Position numbers and translations under genes: made by a program. A stretch of 64,000 nucleotides of DNA, taken from positions 1 to 64,000 of the forward strand of contig JACQYA010000040.1 in assembly GCA_016208425.1 (NCBI GenBank). Direction: 5' to 3'. The stretch is from Betaproteobacteria bacterium. GTDB lineage: Bacteria > Pseudomonadota > Gammaproteobacteria > Burkholderiales > Rhodocyclaceae. Positions 2,055-21,005 of the stretch are shown here, one piece after another (positions within the stretch are counted from its first letter, which is position 1; each line of letters starts with the position of its first letter). The notes under the pieces were generated by a model. It made no database searches. It saw nothing but the letters and a program-made list of their open reading frames with translations, and was not told where the DNA came from.

Positions 2055-2399
2055 ATGCAGATTGCCATTACCAGCCAGAATCGAAAAACCATTACCGAAC
2101 ACGCTGGAAAGTGCCGCAAGTTCTGGATCTACGAGGTCGACAACGGGGAGGTATGCGGTAAAACGTTGCTCGAACTCTCGCCGGGACAAGGTTTCCACCA
2201 GTCGTCGGTTATCGGGGCGCATCCGCTGTGCCACATCAATATCCTTATCTCCGCAGGGATGGGGCAGCGTTTGCGTAGCCGACTGACGCAAAAGGGTATC
2301 CAAACGGTCGATACCTTGGAGAGCGACCCCGATCAAGCCGTTGCCGCGCTGCTGGAAGGACGCTTGGCACAACAGTTGCTCCATCGCCGCGATCACTGA
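2055..2399 (+). CDS. NifX/NifB-family dinitrogenase iron-molybdenum cofactor domain protein
   Basis: A single-domain protein of 114 residues. It opens with the short beta strand typical of the family (MQIAITSQNRKTITEHAGKC), has a central strand and glycine turn (INILISAGMGQRLRSRL), and ends in helices. Family members such as NifX and the C-terminal part of NifB bind or carry iron-molybdenum cofactor precursors in the cytoplasm; many stand-alone relatives lie outside nitrogen-fixation clusters and have no known job. No other nif gene is in the window. The sigma-54-like promoter upstream fits nitrogen or redox control. The next gene starts 29 bases downstream and is probably cotranscribed. Confidence 0.75.
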   Translation: MQIAITSQNRKTITEHAGKCRKFWIYEVDNGEVCGKTLLELSPGQGFHQSSVIGAHPLCHINILISAGMGQRLRSRLTQKGIQTVDTLESDPDQAVAALLEGRLAQQLLHRRDH

Positions 2400-2428
2400 G
2401 CGGGCATCGAAAACAGATCGGGGTCAAG

Positions 2429-2842
2429 ATGAAAAAAAGCATGCTGAACGACCGTTACCCGGTAATGGTTCTCGAATTGAAAAAGCCCGACTGCATTTGT
2501 CGGACGGTGGAAGAGGTGGGCGATTATTTCAGGGCACGTATCGCCGAAAACCCGAAGGTGCAGTTTATCGGCGTGTTCGACCATTTCGCACATACCCGGA
2601 AAATTGGAGGCGAGATCGATCCGGGAATTTGCGCGGCGGTGGACATCGTCTTCTGCTTCGGGTTCGCGCTCCCCAACCCGCAAATTCTGGCGCTTCGCCC
2701 GCGTTCGATCGGCGTCGCCGACATGGGAGACCGCTTTGTCGTGAGCTTCATGGAAGCGCCCATGCAACCGGCAAACGTCGCGATGGAGTCATGGTCTCTC
2801 GGGTTACGCAAAATCCCGGCACCAATAGTGGGCCGGCAATAG
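2429..2842 (+). CDS. Conserved protein of unknown function
   Basis: 137 residues, no signal peptide or membrane segment, probably cytoplasmic. Visible features are a Cys pair near the start (DCICRTVEEV), FIGVFDHFAHTRKIGGEI in the middle, an IVFCFGFALPNP stretch and a conserved-looking RPRSIGVADMGD segment before the C terminus. It may belong to the DUF6858-type family, but I cannot confirm that. It follows the NifX-like gene at 29 bases and probably shares its sigma-54-type promoter, so a role in metal or redox-cofactor handling is possible. No function assigned. Confidence 0.65.
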   Translation: MKKSMLNDRYPVMVLELKKPDCICRTVEEVGDYFRARIAENPKVQFIGVFDHFAHTRKIGGEIDPGICAAVDIVFCFGFALPNPQILALRPRSIGVADMGDRFVVSFMEAPMQPANVAMESWSLGLRKIPAPIVGRQ

Positions 2843-3037
2843 GCACGCCTGACACCGGTCGCCCGTAACGTCCGGGCGAAAACACGGCGTCACGCTATCA
2901 GGCCGACGCCTGCCCGCGACAATAGCGTCGCGTAAAACAGGAATTCGCGGGGATGGAAATTGCCTGCCCGTGTTGTATGGAAAATAAGAATTTGTCTCTG
3001 GTGGACAAGCGAACAAATTTAATGGAGGGGGTATTTC

Positions 3038-3586
3038 ATGGTCAAGATTATCGCCAGCTTTTTGCTTGGAGCGGTCAGTGTAACAGCGCTTCTTTGGCAT
3101 TCGGCTTCGTCGCTGATGTTCAGCGAGCGCGTCAGTCCCTTCGGCGTCGAGGAAACGGTGGCCCGGATCCAGGAGAATATGCAAAATGCCGGAAACGGCT
3201 GGTCGCTTTCGGGGTTGCGGAACGCCGCCAAGCCAATCCAGAAGGATGGCGGAAACGTGCTCCCGGTGCTCATGGTCGAGGGGTGCAGCACCCGCTATTC
3301 CGGGCCGATCCTGAAGGACGACAACCTTCGTTTTCTCTCGATCCTCATGCCTTGCAAGGTCTCCGTCTATAAGAAAAATGACGGGAAGGTCTACATTGCG
3401 ACCATGAATGCGGCACTGATCGGCCGCCTGTTTGGTGCAAAAGTCGGCGGCATCATGGCAAATGTCGCCAACGATCAGGCGAAGTTCTTGGAGTTCGACG
3501 CCAGCAAGCCCGCGCCGAAGATGATAGAGGGTACGCCGGGAGCGGGCGGGCCGGGCGCCGGTTCCGGCGCGGATGGCGGGTGTTGA
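3038..3586 (+). CDS. Membrane-anchored DUF302 protein
   Basis: 182 residues. An N-terminal hydrophobic segment (about residues 3-24) is a signal anchor or uncleaved signal. It is followed by a DUF302-like domain (about 33-160), beginning VEETVARIQENMQNAGN and containing the FLSILMPCKVSVYKK strand. DUF302 proteins are small alpha/beta proteins often found beside sulfur-metabolism and cytochrome genes; their biochemical role is not settled. The C terminus is a Gly/Pro-rich tail ending in Cys. A strong ribosome site (GGAGGGGG) precedes the ATG. It lies 49 bases before the first octaheme cytochrome gene on the same strand and is probably the first gene of that operon, acting at the periplasmic face of the membrane. 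Confidence 0.75.
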   Translation: MVKIIASFLLGAVSVTALLWHSASSLMFSERVSPFGVEETVARIQENMQNAGNGWSLSGLRNAAKPIQKDGGNVLPVLMVEGCSTRYSGPILKDDNLRFLSILMPCKVSVYKKNDGKVYIATMNAALIGRLFGAKVGGIMANVANDQAKFLEFDASKPAPKMIEGTPGAGGPGAGSGADGGC

Positions 3587-3635
3587 GCCGTCCGCGCCGC
3601 ACGATTCCATAGAACGACGCTTCGGGAGGGGATGC

Positions 3636-5315
3636 ATGTTGTCAATATCAAGAGCCGCCATCGCCGCATGGACGGTGGGTGCCGCGCTGATCTGCGCCAG
3701 CGCGTTTTCGGCGACATCGCCGCAGCCAGCGGGTGCCGTTGCGTCGTCCGCCGATCCGGCCGCCGCGTCCGGTGTGCCGTTCAACGCCGCGACCTCGGCC
3801 GAATTCAGGAAAGGCGCCAGCACGGCGGATCACTCCAGGTTCAGGGAGCTGGACAAGGAATTCAAGTCGGGGCCGGAGGTCACCAAGGCCTGCTTGTCCT
3901 GCCACAACGAGGCCGCCCGGCAGGTGCAGCACACCAAGCACTGGACTTGGGATGTGGTCAATCCCGAAAACAAAAAGCGTCTCGGCAAAAAGAACGTCAT
4001 CAACAACTATTGCACCAGCCCGATCTCCAACGAAAAGGACTGTATGGCATGTCACGTCGGCTACGGCTGGAAAGACGGCAACTTCGACTTTTCCAGCGAA
4101 GAGAACGTCGACTGCCTGGTCTGCCACGACACCACGGCGACTTACCGCAAGCTGCCGGGCGACGCCGGGCACCCGGTTTACGAACGCAAGGAATTTCCGC
4201 CGCACTCCGGGAAATTTGTCGAGGCCGCCGATCTGAAAAAGATCGCCCAGCGTATCGGCAAGTCCGGTCGCAGCAACTGCGGTGCCTGCCATTTCTACGG
4301 TGCCGGGGGCGACGGCACCAAACATGGCGACCTGAGCAGCGCGCTGAAAAAGCCGGGAAAATACCTCGACGTGCACATGAACGCAGAGGGGCTGAACTTC
4401 ACTTGCACCAAGTGTCACCAGACTTCCGGGCACCAGGTTGCGGGCAGCCGCTATCAGCTCCCGGCCGCCGAAAAAGGTGCGGCGCATATACGCGGCAAGG
4501 CCGATGCCGCGCCGGAAGCCTGCCAGGCGTGTCACGGCAATACGCCGCATTCCGGCCGGCTGTCTTTGCTCAACGACCATACGGCCAGGGTCGCGTGCCA
4601 GACCTGCCATATTCCCGAGTTCGCCCGCGATCCGATCGGCACTGAAATGAGCTGGGACTGGTCTACCGCGACCAAAATGGGGCCGGACGGCAAGCCGGTG
4701 GTGACCAAGGACAGTGCGGGCCGACGCGCCTTCGATACGAAGAAGGGCACGTTCGTTTGGGACTCCTATGTCATACCCGAGTACGTCTGGTTCAACGGGA
4801 AGTTCGACTACAAGGCCGTTGGCGACAAAATCGATCCGGCTCAGGTGGTGAAAATCAACCGGCCAGAGGGCAGCCCGGCAGGCGACGATTCGCGCATTTG
4901 GCCGATGAAAGTGCATACCGGAAAACAGGCATACGACAAGGTGAACAACACGTTGATCGTCGCCCACACGGCCGGCGAGGACGACACTGCGCTGTGGCAC
5001 AACTTCGACTGGGTCAAAGCGATAGGCGCCGGCATGAAAGCGGCCGGCTTGCCCTTCAGCGGCGAATACGGGTTCGTCAGCACCGAAATGCGCTGGCCGA
5101 TAGCGCACATGGTCGCGCCCAAGGAAGACGCGCTGAACTGCATTCAGTGCCATAGCCCCGACGGGCGCATGAAGAATATCGGGGGCGTCTATTTGCCGGG
5201 GCGGGATGCCAAGCCCTGGTTCGACTGGGGCGCGGGAGTTCTTTCCGTGCTGATTTTTCTAGGTGTCCTGATTCACGGCGGAATCCGCTATATTTCGACC
5301 AGAAAAGGAGTCTGA
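3636..5315 (+). CDS. Octaheme c-type cytochrome, tetrathionate-reductase (Otr) family, copy 1
   Basis: 559 residues, starting at an ATG 4 bases after GGGAGGGG. A signal sequence (about 1-26) leads into eight CXXCH heme sites. Seven begin at residues 86, 136, 160, 215, 257, 296 and 321; the eighth, CIQCH, lies near the C terminus. A single C-terminal membrane helix (GVLSVLIFLGVLIHGGI) anchors it. The heme spacing and the HWTW and VGYGWKDGNFDF motifs match the Otr family; purified Shewanella Otr reduces tetrathionate, and nitrite and hydroxylamine in vitro. A non-heme Cys126 (NNYC) and the DTT..Y.KL segment after heme 3 are candidates for the active-site Cys/Asp/Lys set known in Otr. The membrane anchor and the adjacent cytochrome b suggest a quinone-linked reductase or oxidase. 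Substrate is inferred, not shown. Confidence 0.9.
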   Translation: MLSISRAAIAAWTVGAALICASAFSATSPQPAGAVASSADPAAASGVPFNAATSAEFRKGASTADHSRFRELDKEFKSGPEVTKACLSCHNEAARQVQHTKHWTWDVVNPENKKRLGKKNVINNYCTSPISNEKDCMACHVGYGWKDGNFDFSSEENVDCLVCHDTTATYRKLPGDAGHPVYERKEFPPHSGKFVEAADLKKIAQRIGKSGRSNCGACHFYGAGGDGTKHGDLSSALKKPGKYLDVHMNAEGLNFTCTKCHQTSGHQVAGSRYQLPAAEKGAAHIRGKADAAPEACQACHGNTPHSGRLSLLNDHTARVACQTCHIPEFARDPIGTEMSWDWSTATKMGPDGKPVVTKDSAGRRAFDTKKGTFVWDSYVIPEYVWFNGKFDYKAVGDKIDPAQVVKINRPEGSPAGDDSRIWPMKVHTGKQAYDKVNNTLIVAHTAGEDDTALWHNFDWVKAIGAGMKAAGLPFSGEYGFVSTEMRWPIAHMVAPKEDALNCIQCHSPDGRMKNIGGVYLPGRDAKPWFDWGAGVLSVLIFLGVLIHGGIRYISTRKGV

Positions 5316-5317
5316 TC

Positions 5318-5911
5318 GTGGCCGAACGGCTTTTTATCTTCAAACGTTTCGAGCGCTTCTGGCACTGGTCGCAAGCCGTTCTGATCGTCGTCATGATGCT
5401 TACCGGCTTCGAGGTGCACGGCTTCTATACCTTGTTCGGCTTTGGCGACGCAGCCGTCTACCACACCACGGCGGCGTGGTCGCTGCTGACGATCTGGGCG
5501 TTTGCCGTCGTCTGGCAGTTCACCACCGGCGAGTGGCGGCAGTACATTCCCTCGTTGCGGAATGTAGACGTAATGTTTTTCTATTACCTTTTCGGAATTT
5601 TTACCGGCGCCTCCAGCCCCTTTCACAAAAGCGCCACGCAGAAGCATAACCCCCTGCAACGCCTTGCCTACTTGGCGTTTTTATCGTTCATGTCGCCCAT
5701 CGTTTGGATTTCCGGGTTGCTTTACCTGTTTTACCCGCAGTGGCCGGCGTGGGGAGTGGACAATCTCTTGGCGCTTGAGTGGATTGCTTTGTTCCACACC
5801 TTCGGCGCTTTTCTCGTGCTCTGGTTCTTCATCGTGCACGTCTACCTGGCGCTATCGGGACCTGTTGCTCACCTCAAGGCGATGATTACCGGCTGGGAGG
5901 ACGTGGAATAG
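5318..5911 (+). CDS. Cytochrome b561-type membrane subunit, partner of octaheme cytochrome copy 1
   Basis: 197 residues, GTG start preceded by AAAAGGAG, only 2 bases after the octaheme gene, so translation is probably coupled. Four hydrophobic helices and conserved histidines (FWHWSQAV in helix 1, YHTTAAWSL in helix 2, FHTFGAF and FIVHVYLAL in the later helices) match the b-type cytochromes that serve hydrogenases, formate dehydrogenase and thiosulfate reductase. These carry two b hemes and exchange electrons between quinones and a periplasmic partner, here presumably the octaheme cytochrome. It ends MITGWEDVE; its paralogue at 8921-9553 shares the MITGWE motif. The gene converges with the triple-rhodanese gene 45 bases away. 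Confidence 0.9.
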   Translation: MAERLFIFKRFERFWHWSQAVLIVVMMLTGFEVHGFYTLFGFGDAAVYHTTAAWSLLTIWAFAVVWQFTTGEWRQYIPSLRNVDVMFFYYLFGIFTGASSPFHKSATQKHNPLQRLAYLAFLSFMSPIVWISGLLYLFYPQWPAWGVDNLLALEWIALFHTFGAFLVLWFFIVHVYLALSGPVAHLKAMITGWEDVE

Positions 5912-5923
5912 GGACGGTTGCAG

Positions 5924-5942
5924 CGCCCGTATTCGTCGGGCG
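5924..5942. terminator. Short GC hairpin between convergent operons
   Basis: CGCCCG (5924-5929) and CGGGCG (5937-5942) form a perfect 6-base stem with a 7-base loop, in the 45-base gap between the convergent cytochrome b and rhodanese genes. There is no T-run on either side, so intrinsic termination is uncertain; position is the main argument. Confidence 0.3.
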
Positions 5943-5956
5943 GGCAGCGTTATGGC

Positions 5957-7123
5957 TTATTTTTGCCTGGCGCTGAAAGTGCCGTCCGGGTTGAATTTGA
6001 TCTCGGCGTCCAAGAAGAACACCGGCAGGTCACCACGCAGCAGCTTCACGGTGTCGTAGGCTTCGCCGGCTCGGGCGCCGGTGCCGCAGATGAAGACCGT
6101 CGGCTTGTCCTTGGGCAGCAGGTCAAGCTTCCTTTCCAAGTCGTTGATCGAAACGCTTGCCGCGCCTCTGATGGTGGCGGCGGCGAATTCTTTGGCGTCG
6201 CGCACGTCCACGAGATTGATCGCGCCAGGATTCTCCTTCCATGCCTTTTCGAAAGACGCGAGCGTTACCGAACCCTTTTCCTTGCCCGGTTCCAGTGCGG
6301 GCGTTGTGGGCTTGGTGCCTTTGTCCGTCGCGCCGCCAGACGCAGCGGTGCCGCTGCCGTGGATTTTTTCCCACTCGGGATGCCCTGGCGGGTAGGTGAC
6401 GACGTTGTTGTAGCCCAGCTTGCGCGCCTTGTCGGCTGACTTGTCGGAAAGAACACATTCGAGACCGCCGCAGTAGTAGATAAGCAGTGACGCTTTGTCG
6501 GCCGGAAGTTTGTCCACATGCTTGTCGAACTCGGTGTCCGAAATATTGATCGCGGTCGGAATCATACCCTTGTCGGCGACCCGCTTCGGGCGCGCGTCTA
6601 CCAGCGTATAGGGCGTGCCACCTTTGCCGCTCTCGTCGATCAGCTTCTTCAGGTAGGCTGCAGAAACCGATGCCGTCCCGCCCCTAGCCTTCCAATCGGG
6701 CATGCCGGCAGCGTAAACCTTGATGTTGGAATAGCCTAGTTTTTCCGCTTTCTGAGCGGAGTTGTGGCTCAGCATGCATTCGAGACCGCCGCAATAGAAG
6801 ATTAATAGCACCGTCTTGTCGGCTGGCAGCTTGTCGGCCAGTTTGTCAAACTGGCTGTCGGGGATATTGACGGAGCCCGGGATATGCCCTAGATCATACT
6901 GGCGCGCGGCGGGGCGAGAGTCTATAAGCATGATGCCATTCTTTGGGGGGATATCGACGTTCGGGCGCACGAAATCGAAGTCAGCGAGATCCTTGAACCA
7001 GCCCTCCCTAGGCTGCAACTGTTGGGCATGAGCCGGGGTCGTCCAGATCGCGGCCGACAGAGGCAGGCCAACGGGCGCAATCAAGGCCAGCGCGACGGCG
7101 AGGTAGTGCAATCCGGTCTTCAT
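5957..7123 (-). CDS. Exported protein with three rhodanese domains
   Basis: 388 residues. The ATG is preceded by AAGGAGGGATCC. A signal peptide ends near AHA (about 31-33), placing the protein in the periplasm. Domains 1 (about 45-150) and 2 (about 155-255) each have the loop CGGLEC, with likely catalytic cysteines at 111 and 218. After a Gly/Thr/Pro-rich linker, domain 3 (about 283-388) has the loop CGTGAR with Cys346. Rhodaneses transfer sulfane sulfur from thiosulfate or persulfides to an acceptor. It is the last gene of the minus-strand run that starts with the second octaheme cytochrome, 25 bases after the thiosulfate-transporter gene. A role in handling thiosulfate or polythionate sulfur in the periplasm is inferred. 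Domains 1 and 2 look like an internal duplication. Confidence 0.85.
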   Translation of the reverse strand: MKTGLHYLAVALALIAPVGLPLSAAIWTTPAHAQQLQPREGWFKDLADFDFVRPNVDIPPKNGIMLIDSRPAARQYDLGHIPGSVNIPDSQFDKLADKLPADKTVLLIFYCGGLECMLSHNSAQKAEKLGYSNIKVYAAGMPDWKARGGTASVSAAYLKKLIDESGKGGTPYTLVDARPKRVADKGMIPTAINISDTEFDKHVDKLPADKASLLIYYCGGLECVLSDKSADKARKLGYNNVVTYPPGHPEWEKIHGSGTAASGGATDKGTKPTTPALEPGKEKGSVTLASFEKAWKENPGAINLVDVRDAKEFAAATIRGAASVSINDLERKLDLLPKDKPTVFICGTGARAGEAYDTVKLLRGDLPVFFLDAEIKFNPDGTFSARQK

Positions 7124-7148
7124 GGATCCCTCCTTGATATGAAAGCAA

Positions 7149-8378
7149 TCAAATGACAGTGAACTTCTCCGTCGATTCGTTGTAGCGTACCGCCAGATAC
7201 CATGCCAGCAATATGCCGAAGCCGACGGCGTAGGCCCAGCCCCAGCCGCCAAGCATGTCGGGCAGGTAAGCCTGGGTGCCGACCTTGGTGAATTCGATGC
7301 TTTCCAGATCGACGTCGCGCGTCATCACGTCCCAGTGGCGCAGGATGCCCGAGAAGGTCGAGCCGCCCCAGGCGAAGAAGAATACCGCCACCCACAGCTT
7401 GAAATGTCCCTCGCCTGCGCGCCACAAGGCGCCCGACGCGCAGCCGCCGGCGAACACCATGCCGAGGCCGAAGATCAAGCCGCCGAGCAACGAGCCGAGC
7501 CAGAAGGTCGGCGGAATGGCGATGTAGGGGTCGATCAGCTTTTTCTCGAAGAGCAGCGACGCGGCCGGGATAGCGATGGCCAGCGCCAGGATGATGGCTT
7601 TGGTCATGCCGCCCTCGGCGGTCATGAAGGGTTCGCGGAAGGCGCGAGCGAAACACAGGCGCGAGCGATGCATGACGAAGCCCATCAGGAAGCCGGAGAT
7701 GACAATGATCGCGCGGTTGACCAGCTTCTCGTCGCCGGCGCCGAACCAGGCGACCGTCCACGCGACGATGGCAAAGAACAGCGCCACGCCGATCCAAGGG
7801 TGCCAGGCGCGTAGCGGGGGTGTGATCGGTGTCGGAACCCGCATGCCCCATTCGACGTTTTCCAACGTCCACATGAGCAGTTTCAAGCCGGCGACGGCGC
7901 CGACGACCAAGCCGAAGCCCATCACCCAGCCGGCCGGCGACGAGTGCATGGCGGGCGTAAAAAAGCCGCCCGTGGTGCAGCCGCCAGCGAGCGTCGCGCC
8001 GACGCCCATCAGCGTGCCGCCCAGGGCGCCCCAGATGTATTCGAGCCGGGGTGCGCGGTAGAAGTCGAACTGGCGGGAGATGAGCGCCGCCGCGAAGGCG
8101 CCGACGATCAGGGTGATGTTCATCAGCGACATGCGGTCGATCAGCGGGCTGTCGAGCTCCGCCTTGATCTTGAGCAGGCCGCCCAGCCCGATGGCGGTGT
8201 TGAACCAGTCGCCCCAAAGCTTGAGGCCACCAAAAACGCCCCAGAACAGCCCGTTGACCATCAGGCCGAGGATGACCAGCACCAGCAGAACGGCGCCGAC
8301 ATGGGGCGACCAGGGGTCGACGAAAATAGTCTTGTAGTCGGCGCGCAGGCCGCTACTCAAGTTTGAACCTTCAGACAC
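7149..8378 (-). CDS. YeeE/YedE (TsuA-like) thiosulfate transporter
   Basis: 409 residues with many hydrophobic helices, an inner-membrane protein. It has the two inverted YeeE/YedE repeats and the three conserved cysteines that relay thiosulfate in TsuA: Cys134 in AGGCTTGG, Cys242 in RSRLCFARAF and Cys313 in AGGCASGAL. TsuA imports thiosulfate; some YedE relatives are linked to selenium or other sulfur species. The start is GTG with GGAG eight bases upstream. It sits between a monoheme cytochrome c and the triple rhodanese in the same orientation, so the three probably act together on sulfur supply to, or from, the octaheme system. Confidence 0.85.
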   Translation of the reverse strand: MSEGSNLSSGLRADYKTIFVDPWSPHVGAVLLVLVILGLMVNGLFWGVFGGLKLWGDWFNTAIGLGGLLKIKAELDSPLIDRMSLMNITLIVGAFAAALISRQFDFYRAPRLEYIWGALGGTLMGVGATLAGGCTTGGFFTPAMHSSPAGWVMGFGLVVGAVAGLKLLMWTLENVEWGMRVPTPITPPLRAWHPWIGVALFFAIVAWTVAWFGAGDEKLVNRAIIVISGFLMGFVMHRSRLCFARAFREPFMTAEGGMTKAIILALAIAIPAASLLFEKKLIDPYIAIPPTFWLGSLLGGLIFGLGMVFAGGCASGALWRAGEGHFKLWVAVFFFAWGGSTFSGILRHWDVMTRDVDLESIEFTKVGTQAYLPDMLGGWGWAYAVGFGILLAWYLAVRYNESTEKFTVI

Positions 8379-8455
8379 GATCTGTCTCCGAGTCGTTGGA
8401 AGGAAAGCGGCGCGGCGGTACGCTTACCCCGCCGCGCCCCGGGCCGCGCTATCGG

Positions 8456-8842
8456 TCAGCTGCAACTGGCGGGCGCGTCGCCGTCCTTGGCGCCTTTTTG
8501 CAGGAACGCCTTGACGTCGTCGAGCAGATCCTGGTCGGGCACCTCGGCGAATTTTGCCGCCGCCTGGTTGGTGGCTTTGATGCTGGCGCGATACGGTTTA
8601 CCAAAATACTGCTTGACCGTCTCCTTGCCCTTGGCGTGCTTGTCGGCCTGAAGATAGGCGGCCCAGTCGGCCTTGACCTTGTCGTTCGGCGCGATTGGCT
8701 TGGGCATTTGCGCGGTGTGACAACTGGTGCAGATCTGCCGGTAATACACCCGGCCACGCTTCCAGTCGGCATCGTAGGCCACAGCGCTGCCGGCGGCGAC
8801 GGAGCCGAGCACGGCGGCGATCAACATGAGGGAACGTTTCAT
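8456..8842 (-). CDS. Periplasmic monoheme cytochrome c
   Basis: 128 residues with a cleavable signal (about 1-22) and one heme site, CTSCH at residues 38-42. The GKPYRAS.K segment and the final helix (DLLDDVKAFLQKG) give a small class I-like fold, and the protein ends in a Cys-containing tail (ASCS). The ATG follows AAGGAGTTCCC. It lies 78 bases after the second cytochrome b gene and 77 bases before the transporter gene. It is likely a soluble electron shuttle for the octaheme cytochromes or the sulfur enzymes of this cluster; the true partner is not shown. Confidence 0.85.
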   Translation of the reverse strand: MKRSLMLIAAVLGSVAAGSAVAYDADWKRGRVYYRQICTSCHTAQMPKPIAPNDKVKADWAAYLQADKHAKGKETVKQYFGKPYRASIKATNQAAAKFAEVPDQDLLDDVKAFLQKGAKDGDAPASCS

Positions 8843-8920
8843 GGGAACTCCTTGTTGCAAAGTTGAGATAAGAAAGCAAAGCCTGGTAAGCGACCGGTGC
8901 CGGCGCCGGATTTCATTCCT

Positions 8921-9553
8921 TCATTTCGCTGCCGGAGCTCCGGTCTCTTCGTCGCCGACTTCTTCCCAGCCGGTAATCATCGCCTTGATGTGCGACGTGG
9001 GCGTGTGCCCGGCGGTGGTCAGGTAAACGTGGGCGATCAGGAAGATCAGCATCATGAAGGCGGCGACGGTGTGAAAGAAGGCGACCGTTTCCAGGCTGAG
9101 GTATTTGTCCCAACCCCACGCCGTCCAGTTGTCGTGCAAGATGTAGAACCAGCCGGTGACCCAGATCAGCGGGCTGATGAACAGCAGGACGCCGAGGTAG
9201 GCGAGCCGCTGGAGCGGATTGTGCTTTTTCAGGCGCGTGGCGCGGAACGGGTGCGGCGCGTCGGTGAAAATCCCCAGCGCGTAGTATTTGATCATCGCGT
9301 CGACCTTGGCCAGCGTCGGGATGTACTGCTTCCATTCGCCGGTCGTGAAGTGCCAGAAGATGGCGAACACCCACAGGCCGACCAGCGACCACGCGGCGAT
9401 GGTGTGGTAGCCGGCCGCCCGCTCGAACCCGAACAGCCGGTAGGCGCCGTGCACCTCGAAGCCGGTAGTCAGCAGGGTAAGGACGAGCAGCATCTGAGCC
9501 CAGTGCCAGAAACGCTCGAAACGCTTGAAAACGTAGATTTTTGTCGCGGACAT
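8921..9553 (-). CDS. Cytochrome b561-type membrane subunit, partner of octaheme cytochrome copy 2
   Basis: 210 residues. The ATG is preceded by AGGAGGAAG, which overlaps the end of the octaheme gene (2-base gap), so the two are translationally coupled. Four membrane helices with the b-heme histidines (FWHWAQML, YHTIAAWSL, FFHTVAAFMM, IAHVYLTTAG). It is a clear paralogue of the protein at 5318-5911, with near-identical starts (VFKRFERFWHW against IFKRFERFWHW) and the same KHNPLQRLAYL loop. It differs by a longer, charged C-terminal tail. Predicted to pass electrons between quinone and the octaheme cytochrome. Confidence 0.9.
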   Translation of the reverse strand: MSATKIYVFKRFERFWHWAQMLLVLTLLTTGFEVHGAYRLFGFERAAGYHTIAAWSLVGLWVFAIFWHFTTGEWKQYIPTLAKVDAMIKYYALGIFTDAPHPFRATRLKKHNPLQRLAYLGVLLFISPLIWVTGWFYILHDNWTAWGWDKYLSLETVAFFHTVAAFMMLIFLIAHVYLTTAGHTPTSHIKAMITGWEEVGDEETGAPAAK

Positions 9554-9555
9554 GA

Positions 9556-11175
9556 CTACTTCCTCCTGCTCATGACGATGCGCAATGCGCCGTGGATCAG
9601 CACGCCCAGCAGCGTCGCGGCGGCGGCCAGCCAGCCGGCGATGTCCAGCCAGCGCTTCTGGCTGTGCGACGGCATGTAGATGCCGTCGATGCCCTTCAGG
9701 CGGCTGTCCGCCGAATGACACTCGGCGCAGGCGAGCGCCTTGTCCTTGGGCGCCACCATGTGGGTGATCGGCCAGAACATTTCGGTCTTGATGAAATCGA
9801 CCTTGCCCGAGAAGGGGGCGCCCATGTTCTGCATGCCGTCGGCGATGGCCTTCTCCCATTCGAGATTTTTCCAGAAGCCGATATCATCGTTGCCTGCCGT
9901 GTGCGGCATGACCAGCGTCTTGTTGATCGGGTCGAATGGCTGGACGCCGCGCATGACTTTCATCGGCCAGATCATCGAGCGCCCGTCGGCCGGCGAGCCG
10001 CCGATGCGGTTGACGCCGGTCGGGACATCGGATTTTTCGACCTTGTCGCCGAGCAGCGTGTAGCTGATGTCGCCGTTGAACCAGCGGTATTCGGGCTTGA
10101 CCTTCTCGCCGAGAACGAAATCGCCTTTGCGCGTATCGTAGATGACGTGGTTGTGGTCGTCCTTCCTCGTCATGTGCTTACCGTCGGCGCCCTTCTGGCC
10201 GGCCGTCGACCAGTCCCAGGACATCTTGGTGGCGACGCCGCCGCGCGCGAAGGTGGGAACGTGGCAGGTCTGGCAGGCGATCTTCTCGGCGTGGGTGTTC
10301 AGGCGCGCTTTTTCCTTGTGCGGCGTGTTGCCGTGGCAGGCCTGGCAGGTGGCCGGGTTGCCCTGACCCATCTTGCCGCGAATATGGGCGCCGTGCTTGT
10401 CGGTCGCCGTCGGCTTGTAACGGCTGCCCGGCACGTCGTGGGAGGAAGTGGCGTGGCATGTGGCGCAGGTAAAGTCCAGGCCGGTGGCGTCCATATGGAT
10501 GTCGAGATCCTTGTCGGGCGCCGCCAGAGAGCTGTCCATGTCGCCATGCTTGACGCCGTCGCCGCCACCGCCGAAGAAGTGGCAGGCGCCGCAGGTGTCG
10601 CGGCTGGTTTTGCCGATCTTCTGCGCGATCTTGGCCAGGTCGGGCGGCTTGACCATGTTGCCCGAACCGGGAGGGGTTTCGACGGGCTTGTACGCCGGGT
10701 GCCCGGCCAGCCCCGGCAATTTCTTGTAGTTGCCGGTCGTATCGTGACAGACGAGGCAATCGACGTTTTCCTCGGCGGCGAAGTCAAAATTCTTGTCCTT
10801 CCAGCCGTAGCCTACGTGGCAGGAAGTGCAGAACGGGTAGTTTTGCGAGATGGATATACAGAAGTTGTTGAGAACATTTTTCTTGCCCAGGCGCTGCTGG
10901 TTGTCCGGGTTCAGGAATTCCCAAGTCCAGTGTTTGGTGCGATGCACTTGCCGGGCGGCTTCCGTGTGGCAGGAAAGACAGGCCTTGGTGACCTTTGGCC
11001 CGGAATCGAACGTCCCCTGCAACTGCTTGAACTTGCTGTGGTCGGCCGTACTGTCCAGTCTTACCGGTGGCGCTTCCTTTGCTTCCTTAATTTCGGCGGC
11101 AGCGAAAGCCCCCGCCGAAATCAGCCACAAGCCGGCCACTACCCCCTGCCATCGACGTGTAGTCGAGTTTCTCAT
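9556..11175 (-). CDS. Octaheme c-type cytochrome, tetrathionate-reductase (Otr) family, copy 2
   Basis: 539 residues from an ATG behind GAGGGGGAG. Signal sequence (about 7-27), then eight CXXCH sites: CLSCH (66), CTSCH (116), CLVCH (140), followed by CGACH, CATCH, CQACH, CQTCH and a distant CAECH. A C-terminal membrane helix (AAAATLLGVLIHGALRI) ends in SRRK. Spacing of hemes is the same as in copy 1, as is the extra Cys (NNFC, residue 106) before heme 2 and the DTT..Y.KL segment after heme 3. It starts the run octaheme cytochrome, cytochrome b, cytochrome c, transporter, rhodanese. The link to thiosulfate genes is stronger for this copy than for copy 1. Real substrate could be tetrathionate, thiosulfate, nitrite or another oxyanion. 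Confidence 0.9.
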   Translation of the reverse strand: MRNSTTRRWQGVVAGLWLISAGAFAAAEIKEAKEAPPVRLDSTADHSKFKQLQGTFDSGPKVTKACLSCHTEAARQVHRTKHWTWEFLNPDNQQRLGKKNVLNNFCISISQNYPFCTSCHVGYGWKDKNFDFAAEENVDCLVCHDTTGNYKKLPGLAGHPAYKPVETPPGSGNMVKPPDLAKIAQKIGKTSRDTCGACHFFGGGGDGVKHGDMDSSLAAPDKDLDIHMDATGLDFTCATCHATSSHDVPGSRYKPTATDKHGAHIRGKMGQGNPATCQACHGNTPHKEKARLNTHAEKIACQTCHVPTFARGGVATKMSWDWSTAGQKGADGKHMTRKDDHNHVIYDTRKGDFVLGEKVKPEYRWFNGDISYTLLGDKVEKSDVPTGVNRIGGSPADGRSMIWPMKVMRGVQPFDPINKTLVMPHTAGNDDIGFWKNLEWEKAIADGMQNMGAPFSGKVDFIKTEMFWPITHMVAPKDKALACAECHSADSRLKGIDGIYMPSHSQKRWLDIAGWLAAAATLLGVLIHGALRIVMSRRK

Positions 11176-11305
11176 CGCTCCCCCTCTTGGTTTTCTTGAA
11201 CTACCTTCGCTCGGCTCCAGGCGTGGCGCACGAACCCGGCGCCCGGCCGCATTTTTTAACGGTACGGCCACCCGCTTCCGGCGTCAGGGCACCCGCAAAT
11301 GCATG

Positions 11306-19511: not shown

Positions 19512-19538
19512 TTAGGGCGGATATCAGGAGGCGTGACA

Positions 19539-21005
19539 TTGCTATCAGGTCTTGAACAAACCCGTTTGGAAGTATCAGGACGAACCGATGCGAAGAAAAA
19601 ATCGCAGCTCGGGCAATTTCTTACGCCGGCAAATACGGCATCATTTATGGCAGGGCTTTTCCCTGCATCGAGCGGTGAATGCCGCCTACTGGATGCTGGG
19701 GCAGGGATTGGTTCTTTATCGAGCGCATTTCTTGAAAGGTGCATAACTGGACATCTGAACTTCACAGAAATACAACTCAAGGCATTTGAGCTTGACGATT
19801 CTATACACGACGAACTTCAGAACTCTCTTTCGCCCTACATTCAAAAATGCCGCTTCTCTTTTGAGGTGATTGGAAATGATTTTATTGAAGAAGCAGTTAA
19901 TGCAATTCAGTTTCAGAAATACAATTTCACGCACGCCATACTGAACCCACCGTACAAAAAAATCGGAAGCAATTCAAGTTACCGGATGCTTCTTCGTGAG
20001 ACCGGAATTGAAACCGTCAATCTCTATTCGGCTTTCGTGGCGCTGGCCGTCGCGATGGCAGCTCCGGGCGGGCAGATCGTGGCGATTATCCCGCGCAGCT
20101 TCTGCAATGGGCCGTATTACCGCCCGTTCCGTGATTTCATCCTTGAACGTGCAGCCATCCGGCACATGCACTTATTCGAGTCGCGCAGCAAGGCATTCAA
20201 GGATGATGACGTGCTGCAAGAGAACATCATCATCCGGCTTGAGCGTGGTGGCCAGCAAGGGCCGGTAACGGTTTCCACATCGACGGACGACAGCTTTTCC
20301 GACCTTGAAATCCATGAACACCCGTTCGACCGAATCGTGTTCCCGGATGACTCCGAGCGGTTCATTCATGTGCCTGCATTGGCCGAAAAATCCATCGAGC
20401 TATCCCCGGTCATCCGTCATGCGTTGATCGATCTTGGCATTAAGGTTTCGACCGGACCGGTAGTCGATTTCCGGCTGAAAGAGCATTTGCTCGACATGCC
20501 CGAATCCGGCACTGTTCCCTTGCTTTATCCCGGCCATTTCAGCAACAGCACCACGACATGGCCGCAAGCTGGCATGAAGAAACCGAATGCGATCCAGCGC
20601 AACGGTGAAACCGAAAAATGGCTGTATCCGAGCGGTTTTTATTGTGTGGTGCGCCGCTTCTCATCGAAAGAAGAAAAGCGCCGGGTCGTGGCGGGTGTGG
20701 TTGATCCTGGCGCATTCGATGATGCCCCCATGTTGGGCTTCGAGAACCATCTAAACCTGTTCCATGAGAACAAGCGCGGCTTGCCGCAAGCGCTGGCGCG
20801 TGGGCTGGCCGTATTCCTCAATTCGACCGTTGTCGATGATAATTTCAGACGCTTTAGCGGCCATACACAGGTCAATGCAACCGACCTCAAACAAATGAAG
20901 TACCCGAGCCGTGACGCCCTGATTGAGCTTGGCGAATGGGCGATGCAACACGGGGATCTCACGCAAACAATGATTGATAACAAGTTAGGGACACTCACCG
21001 CATGA
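19539..21005 (+). CDS. N6-adenine DNA methyltransferase of a PstI/BsuBI-type (Eco57I-family) system
   Basis: 488 residues from TTG at 19539, chosen because AGGAGG (19526-19531) is 7 bases upstream; GTG at 19533 would be too close. Motif X region KSQLGQFLTP, motif I LLDAGAGIGSL (SAM binding) and motif IV NPPY (catalysis, in HAILNPPYKKIG) are intact. A C-terminal target-recognition part ends in NSTVVDDNFRRFSGHTQVNATDLKQMKYPS. It methylates adenine in a specific DNA site; PstI-like CTGCAG is a guess from the endonuclease next door. The gene is AT-richer than its neighbours, most of all in the first 500 bases, a sign of transfer. Its stop overlaps the start of the endonuclease remnant (ATGA). Confidence 0.9.
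   Translation: MLSGLEQTRLEVSGRTDAKKKSQLGQFLTPANTASFMAGLFPASSGECRLLDAGAGIGSLSSAFLERCITGHLNFTEIQLKAFELDDSIHDELQNSLSPYIQKCRFSFEVIGNDFIEEAVNAIQFQKYNFTHAILNPPYKKIGSNSSYRMLLRETGIETVNLYSAFVALAVAMAAPGGQIVAIIPRSFCNGPYYRPFRDFILERAAIRHMHLFESRSKAFKDDDVLQENIIIRLERGGQQGPVTVSTSTDDSFSDLEIHEHPFDRIVFPDDSERFIHVPALAEKSIELSPVIRHALIDLGIKVSTGPVVDFRLKEHLLDMPESGTVPLLYPGHFSNSTTTWPQAGMKKPNAIQRNGETEKWLYPSGFYCVVRRFSSKEEKRRVVAGVVDPGAFDDAPMLGFENHLNLFHENKRGLPQALARGLAVFLNSTVVDDNFRRFSGHTQVNATDLKQMKYPSRDALIELGEWAMQHGDLTQTMIDNKLGTLTA

Follow-up and report, generated by a model that had tools for sequence, protein, structure and literature searches.

Two distinct octaheme cytochrome modules, one linked to a set of sulfur genes, lie side by side in a Rhodocyclaceae genome

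Octaheme c-type cytochromes of the OTR family have mostly been studied as soluble enzymes without a settled physiological role. The window analyzed here, a 64,000-nucleotide stretch of a genome assigned to the Rhodocyclaceae, carries two of them in a single cluster (3038-11175), and this raises the questions of whether the two arms of the cluster are copies of one another and what they do together with the sulfur genes that lie between them. The forward arm, module A, consists of genes for a DUF302 protein with an N-terminal signal or anchor and two invariant Cys, C83 and C106 (PF03625; 3038-3586, +), the octaheme protein OTRa (3636-5315, +) and the cytochrome b CybA (5318-5911, +). The reverse arm, module B, consists of genes for OTRb (9556-11175, -), the cytochrome b CybB (8921-9553, -), a monoheme cytochrome c (8456-8842, -), a transporter of the YeeE/YedE family (Sulf_transp, PF04143; 7149-8378, -) and a periplasmic triple rhodanese (three PF00581 domains; 5957-7123, -). 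The rhodanese has a Sec-type signal peptide, and its start was placed at 7123, downstream of the start of the longest ORF. The convergent arms meet at 5911/5957, and the gap between the stop of each OTR gene and the start of its cytochrome b gene is 2 bp. All the genes named in the first-pass annotation were thus recovered, namely the converging octaheme and cytochrome b pairs on opposite strands, the DUF302 gene of the forward arm, and the cytochrome c, transporter and triple rhodanese genes of the reverse arm. We found no further PF11783 gene in the genome of the window beyond OTRa and OTRb.

Judged by profile scores and motif content, both octaheme proteins are full members of the OTR family TIGR04315. 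OTRa and OTRb scored 608.9 and 627.9 bits over model positions 1-440 (curated cut-off, 375 bits), and nearly their whole length could be aligned with the solved Shewanella OTR, 1SP3 (8e-117 and 5e-113, respectively). They are 57% identical to each other. The residues aligned with K153 (KHGD) and C64 (NNFC) of 1SP3, which we take to be the heme-ligand active-site Lys and a nearby Cys, are kept in both proteins (as KHGD and NNYC motifs in OTRa) and in all rows of the two OTR clades described below. Like the Shewanella oneidensis protein, each has eight CxxCH motifs. However, the Shewanella OTR is a soluble protein supplied with electrons via CymA/STC (PMC4484225), whereas both OTRa and OTRb have a C-terminal transmembrane helix and are accompanied by a cytochrome b gene.

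The cluster had been read in the first-pass annotation as an inverted duplication with a sulfur-handling insert. To place the two copies, a scan of our genome collection yielded 80 OTR loci, order- and phylum-wide searches added more, and a tree of 87 rows was built from the heme-containing part, with the C-terminal anchor left out. Two arrangements recurred among 129 distinct OTRs: in arrangement A (DUF302-OTR-cytochrome b), DUF302 was directly upstream in 75, and in arrangement B (OTR-cytochrome b with cytochrome c, transporter and rhodanese), members of the sulfur set were nearby in 21. More distant OTRs mostly had a cytochrome b as their sole module partner. The two kinds were separated in the tree (SH-aLRT 97 for A and 93 for B), and neighborhood labels changed only 6 times on it, compared with 40 in shuffles. 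OTRa was placed in clade A beside a same-family relative (G067), and OTRb in clade B with sequences of G248 (Sulfurisoma-type) and G024. Both neighborhoods recur across Beta- and Gammaproteobacteria in many genera. An origin by recent inverted duplication and insertion of sulfur genes, for which the convergent arms, the paralogous OTR-cytochrome b pairs and some long complementary stretches speak, is scarcely credible, as those stretches match at only 71-74%, the window copies are not each other's closest relatives, forcing them together was rejected (delta lnL 297, p-AU 0.000109), and each clade has its own neighbors. The insert reading is also wrong because cytochrome c, transporter and rhodanese are inherited partners of the clade B OTR. 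According to the tree, the window holds two distinct, anciently separated OTR modules side by side; OTR in its membrane-anchored, cytochrome b-linked form thus comprises two old lineages, and a private sulfur kit is inherited along with one of them.

The two modules meet in other genomes as well. G243, which the OTR tree places near Sulfuricella sp. T08, has one head-to-tail run of DUF302, OTRa, cytochrome b, cytochrome c, transporter, rhodanese, OTRb and cytochrome b (locus L122), and at three further loci (L056, L059 and L082) module B begins in this way after a cytochrome b. A and B are far apart in G248 and G043. A and B have thus become neighbors in at least two distinct arrangements; this suggests, without proving it, a joint function.

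Both cytochromes b are predicted to have four transmembrane helices (PF01292), and the four His residues expected to be the ligands of two b hemes are invariant in 27/27 sequences. They resemble the PhsC/Ni-hydrogenase type of b-heme subunit, a four-helix protein that connects a periplasmic enzyme to quinone. However, their best NCBIfam match, PRK15006, gave 90 and 108 bits and lies below its cut-off of 204 bits, and their partner is an octaheme protein rather than a molybdoenzyme. Unlike the TtrABC and PhsABC molybdoenzyme operons, the region 2055-11175 encodes no molybdopterin catalytic subunit, and each cluster gene has another assignment. In sequence, CybA and CybB have drifted to 57% identity. 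In three other genomes (L122, L123/L124 and L116/L115), the two cytochrome b genes of the same genome are 99-100% identical and the C-terminal ends of the OTRs 83-100% identical, whereas the remaining OTR body is mostly 53-78% identical; taken as a whole, the paired OTRs differ by 30-40%. In L122, the near-identical genes are located at 5124-5729 and 10598-11203. Such conservation of the cytochrome b while the OTRs diverge points to one shared membrane module, and gene conversion that keeps a common membrane partner for both OTRs is likely in these genomes.

The linkage of OTR, cytochrome b, transporter and rhodanese was found again in relatives. Among 300 genomes of the order, the triple rhodanese occurred in nine, all of them OTR-positive; eight copies were near full length; of these, six belonged to the OTR cluster, while the other two were located on a different contig and on a contig fragment. 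Strong matches to the module cytochrome c were also confined to nine of the 300, again all OTR-positive, and the next match scored 26 bits. For both proteins, nearly all of the strong matches lay at the module B locus. Fisher tests of co-occurrence with OTR gave 1e-9 to 1e-10 for these two proteins, with kinship ignored. Neighbors of module B were sulfur or electron-transfer proteins only, and clustering of all ORFs at B loci yielded the five module families and no further conserved gene, the rest being out-of-frame or antisense shadows. On this comparative evidence, module B is a real and recurrent unit.

The cytochrome c of this module ends in a Cys (..GDAPASCS) that is present in 19/19 sequences. 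It has one invariant His outside the heme motif, H69, and no conserved axial Met was seen across the aligned sequences. Its AlphaFold model (mean pLDDT 81) shows a helical core and a low-pLDDT tail that carries the C-terminal Cys, and in this model the tail is probably mobile. In fold searches, the matches (c6/c549/c550) were all weak and did not reach E 0.001. There is an analogy to TsdA and SoxXA, c-type cytochromes with a functional Cys in thiosulfate chemistry; however, the module protein has one heme, its Cys is at the extreme C-terminus, and homology to them was not shown. The rhodanese has CxxxxC loops in domains 1 and 2 and a single Cys loop in domain 3, and its five Cys columns are invariant (20/20 in four of them and 19/19 in the fifth).

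The transporter had been described as TsuA-like, and this held only in part. It belongs to the YeeE (Sulf_transp) family together with TsuA/SoxT and YedE, and the three Cys of TsuA-type transport are kept (LCFARAFREP, AGGCASG and AGGCTTG motifs) and invariant in full-length copies. However, it reached only 105 of 400 bits and 83 of 645 bits against the TsuA family cut-offs (NF052577 and NF041049), and its halves, and with them the Cys motifs, align to TsuA (6LEO) in swapped order. Because of the low scores and the swapped halves, we regard it as a YeeE-family protein of YedE/FdhT order and not as a strict TsuA. It is missing from module B at four loci (L062, L076, L080 and L081). At a fifth, L120, a C-terminal fragment is left (9473-9724) beside intact cytochrome c and rhodanese. 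Inspection of locus L073 by eye showed that a DsrE-like protein carrying a signal peptide is encoded between the transporter and cytochrome c genes (7432-7863), with a second YeeE-family gene nearby (4744-5823).

Genome-wide searches placed these loci in a sulfur context. SoxB was above cut-off in 26/27 OTR genomes and in 114/273 others (140/300 overall; Fisher p 1e-8), and DsrA, fragments included, in 23/27 compared with 39/273, although these counts are phylogenetically non-independent. By these markers, the OTR-carrying genomes are those of sulfur oxidizers. In the genome of the window, SoxB, AprA and a MenB scored above cut-off, whereas SoxC and DsrA did not; because the genome is 96% complete, the absence of DsrA is uncertain.

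For this system we propose quinol-linked reduction of polythionate, in particular tetrathionate, with periplasmic sulfur trafficking in module B, and we would put the chances of this at about even. The sequences establish gene content, clade separation, linkage, specificity, the conserved heme, Lys and Cys residues and the sulfur-oxidizer setting, whereas we infer the direction of electron flow, the substrate, the passage of sulfur among the components and the quinone partner. In this scheme, electrons from quinol would enter the cytochrome b with its two heme-b sites and pass to the membrane-anchored, periplasm-facing OTR, which would reduce a compound with a sulfur-sulfur bond; conversion of tetrathionate to two thiosulfates is the most likely reaction. 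This core would be common to A and B. In module B, the Cys-tailed cytochrome c and the triple rhodanese might take over sulfane sulfur or thiosulfate, which the transporter could carry into the cytoplasm for oxidation. Import through the transporter would not be essential, since it is missing or truncated in some genomes with module B. Given the potentials of quinones, reduction of tetrathionate by a quinol is downhill relative to a couple at +198 mV. Tetrathionate is the best candidate because this is the potential of the tetrathionate/thiosulfate couple (PMC5146829) and because it is reduced by the nearest relative with a cytochrome b neighbor whose activity has been assayed. That relative, BOGUAY_2386 of an orange Guaymas Beggiatoaceae, is an OTR-type octaheme protein with a thiosulfate-reductase-type cytochrome b among its downstream genes; it reduces tetrathionate and, less or more slowly, nitrite (PMC6449678). 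A set of rhodanese, YeeE protein and monoheme cytochrome c was not reported there.

The hosts, being sulfur oxidizers that carry Sox genes, would also fit an oxidative role. OTRb, with or without OTRa, might oxidize thiosulfate to tetrathionate, with quinone as electron acceptor via the cytochrome b or with an oxidase or denitrification chain as acceptor via the monoheme cytochrome c. A dedicated cytochrome c in module B is consistent with this, and so is DUF302, whose genes also occur in sox clusters of bacteria that oxidize thiosulfate via tetrathionate (PMC5037610, PMC5248467). However, at the +198 mV of the couple (PMC5146829) the oxidation of thiosulfate with ubiquinone is uphill, OTR is known as a reductase (PMC6449678), and neither module A nor the outgroup OTR loci contain the cytochrome c, so that we consider this direction rather doubtful. 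Tetrathionate itself has a competitor, as nitrite reduction is proven for the family: both the Shewanella OTR, which also reduces hydroxylamine (PMC4484225), and BOGUAY_2386 (PMC6449678) act on nitrite. OTR and cytochrome b could then serve quinol-linked, ammonifying reduction or detoxification of nitrite (or hydroxylamine), with the sulfur genes as mere neighbors. Against this, the neighbors of module B are sulfur-related and co-inherited with it, co-occurrence with SoxB and DsrA is strong, and turnover of BOGUAY_2386 is faster on tetrathionate than on nitrite (PMC6449678), which makes the nitrite reading unlikely.

Two less probable proposals concern sulfane sulfur. In the first, module B as a whole would be a new periplasmic sulfane-sulfur pathway that performs, outside the cytoplasm, the task of SoxYZ-SoxCD in other bacteria, and the Cys-armed cytochrome c would act as a combined sulfur and electron carrier between the triple rhodanese and the quinone-linked octaheme protein; we hold this to be quite unlikely. 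In the second, OTRb would be a SoxCD-independent sulfane dehydrogenase that oxidizes sulfane sulfur borne by the cytochrome c or the rhodanese to sulfite, with electrons passing via the cytochrome b to quinone. The invariant Cys on a low-confidence, probably mobile tail is compatible with such a task, and the reduction of nitrite and hydroxylamine by OTR (PMC4484225) would amount to six-electron chemistry if the product is ammonia. SoxC was below cut-off in 8/9 genomes with the module cytochrome c; however, most OTR genomes that lack module B have no SoxC either, nor do most SoxB controls (7/11, hand-picked), and we rejected its absence as a marker of module B. In addition, DsrA, present in nearly all these genomes, already does the same job in the cytoplasm, and a precedent for OTR acting on a persulfide is lacking. 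This dehydrogenase is therefore very unlikely.

The claim that the cluster could be an undescribed quinone-linked sulfur module is supported in part. Conserved linkage, the specificity of cytochrome c and rhodanese, the sulfur-oxidizing hosts and the invariant heme-b His residues speak for it, but OTR adjoining a thiosulfate-reductase-type cytochrome b had already been noted in orange Beggiatoaceae (PMC6449678). Taken singly, OTR, its cytochrome b neighborhood, YeeE transporters and periplasmic rhodaneses are known. Searches of the open literature gave no earlier account of the five-part module, the split into A and B or the Cys-tailed cytochrome c, and open-licence full texts yielded no paper on OTR with a triple rhodanese, YeeE protein and monoheme cytochrome c. 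Gene content and its conservation suggest that module B is an undescribed sulfur-trafficking unit. The co-inheritance of one OTR lineage with the sulfur set offers a specific physiological role for OTR, open to testing, in sulfur oxidizers such as Sulfuricella and Sulfurisoma. It also points to an uncharacterized cytochrome c family, whose invariant tail Cys suggests direct sulfur handling.

Several minor observations were made along the way. A selenocysteine-containing protein of the OTR family, WP_331457571.1, is listed under TIGR04315 in a review of selenoproteomes (PMC13188914). An OTR remnant broken across two frames and interrupted by in-frame TGA stops (G154:C12:112544-112847) occurs in a genome that has an intact copy elsewhere. 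In the window, module A is preceded by a NifX-like gene (2055-2399, +) and a DUF6858 gene (2429-2842, +). Both kinds of gene also follow OTR-cytochrome b at locus L075, and DUF6858 is found after OTR-cytochrome b at L135 and near DUF302-OTR at L027. The first 16 kb of the window contained no RNA families, and a promoter scan found no excess over shuffles; terminator-like sites numbered 22, compared with 11.7 expected. Further downstream, an ORF that by eye resembles N6-adenine methyltransferases (NPPY motif; 19533-21005) lies in a stretch of lower G+C (0.53 compared with about 0.63) and was possibly acquired.
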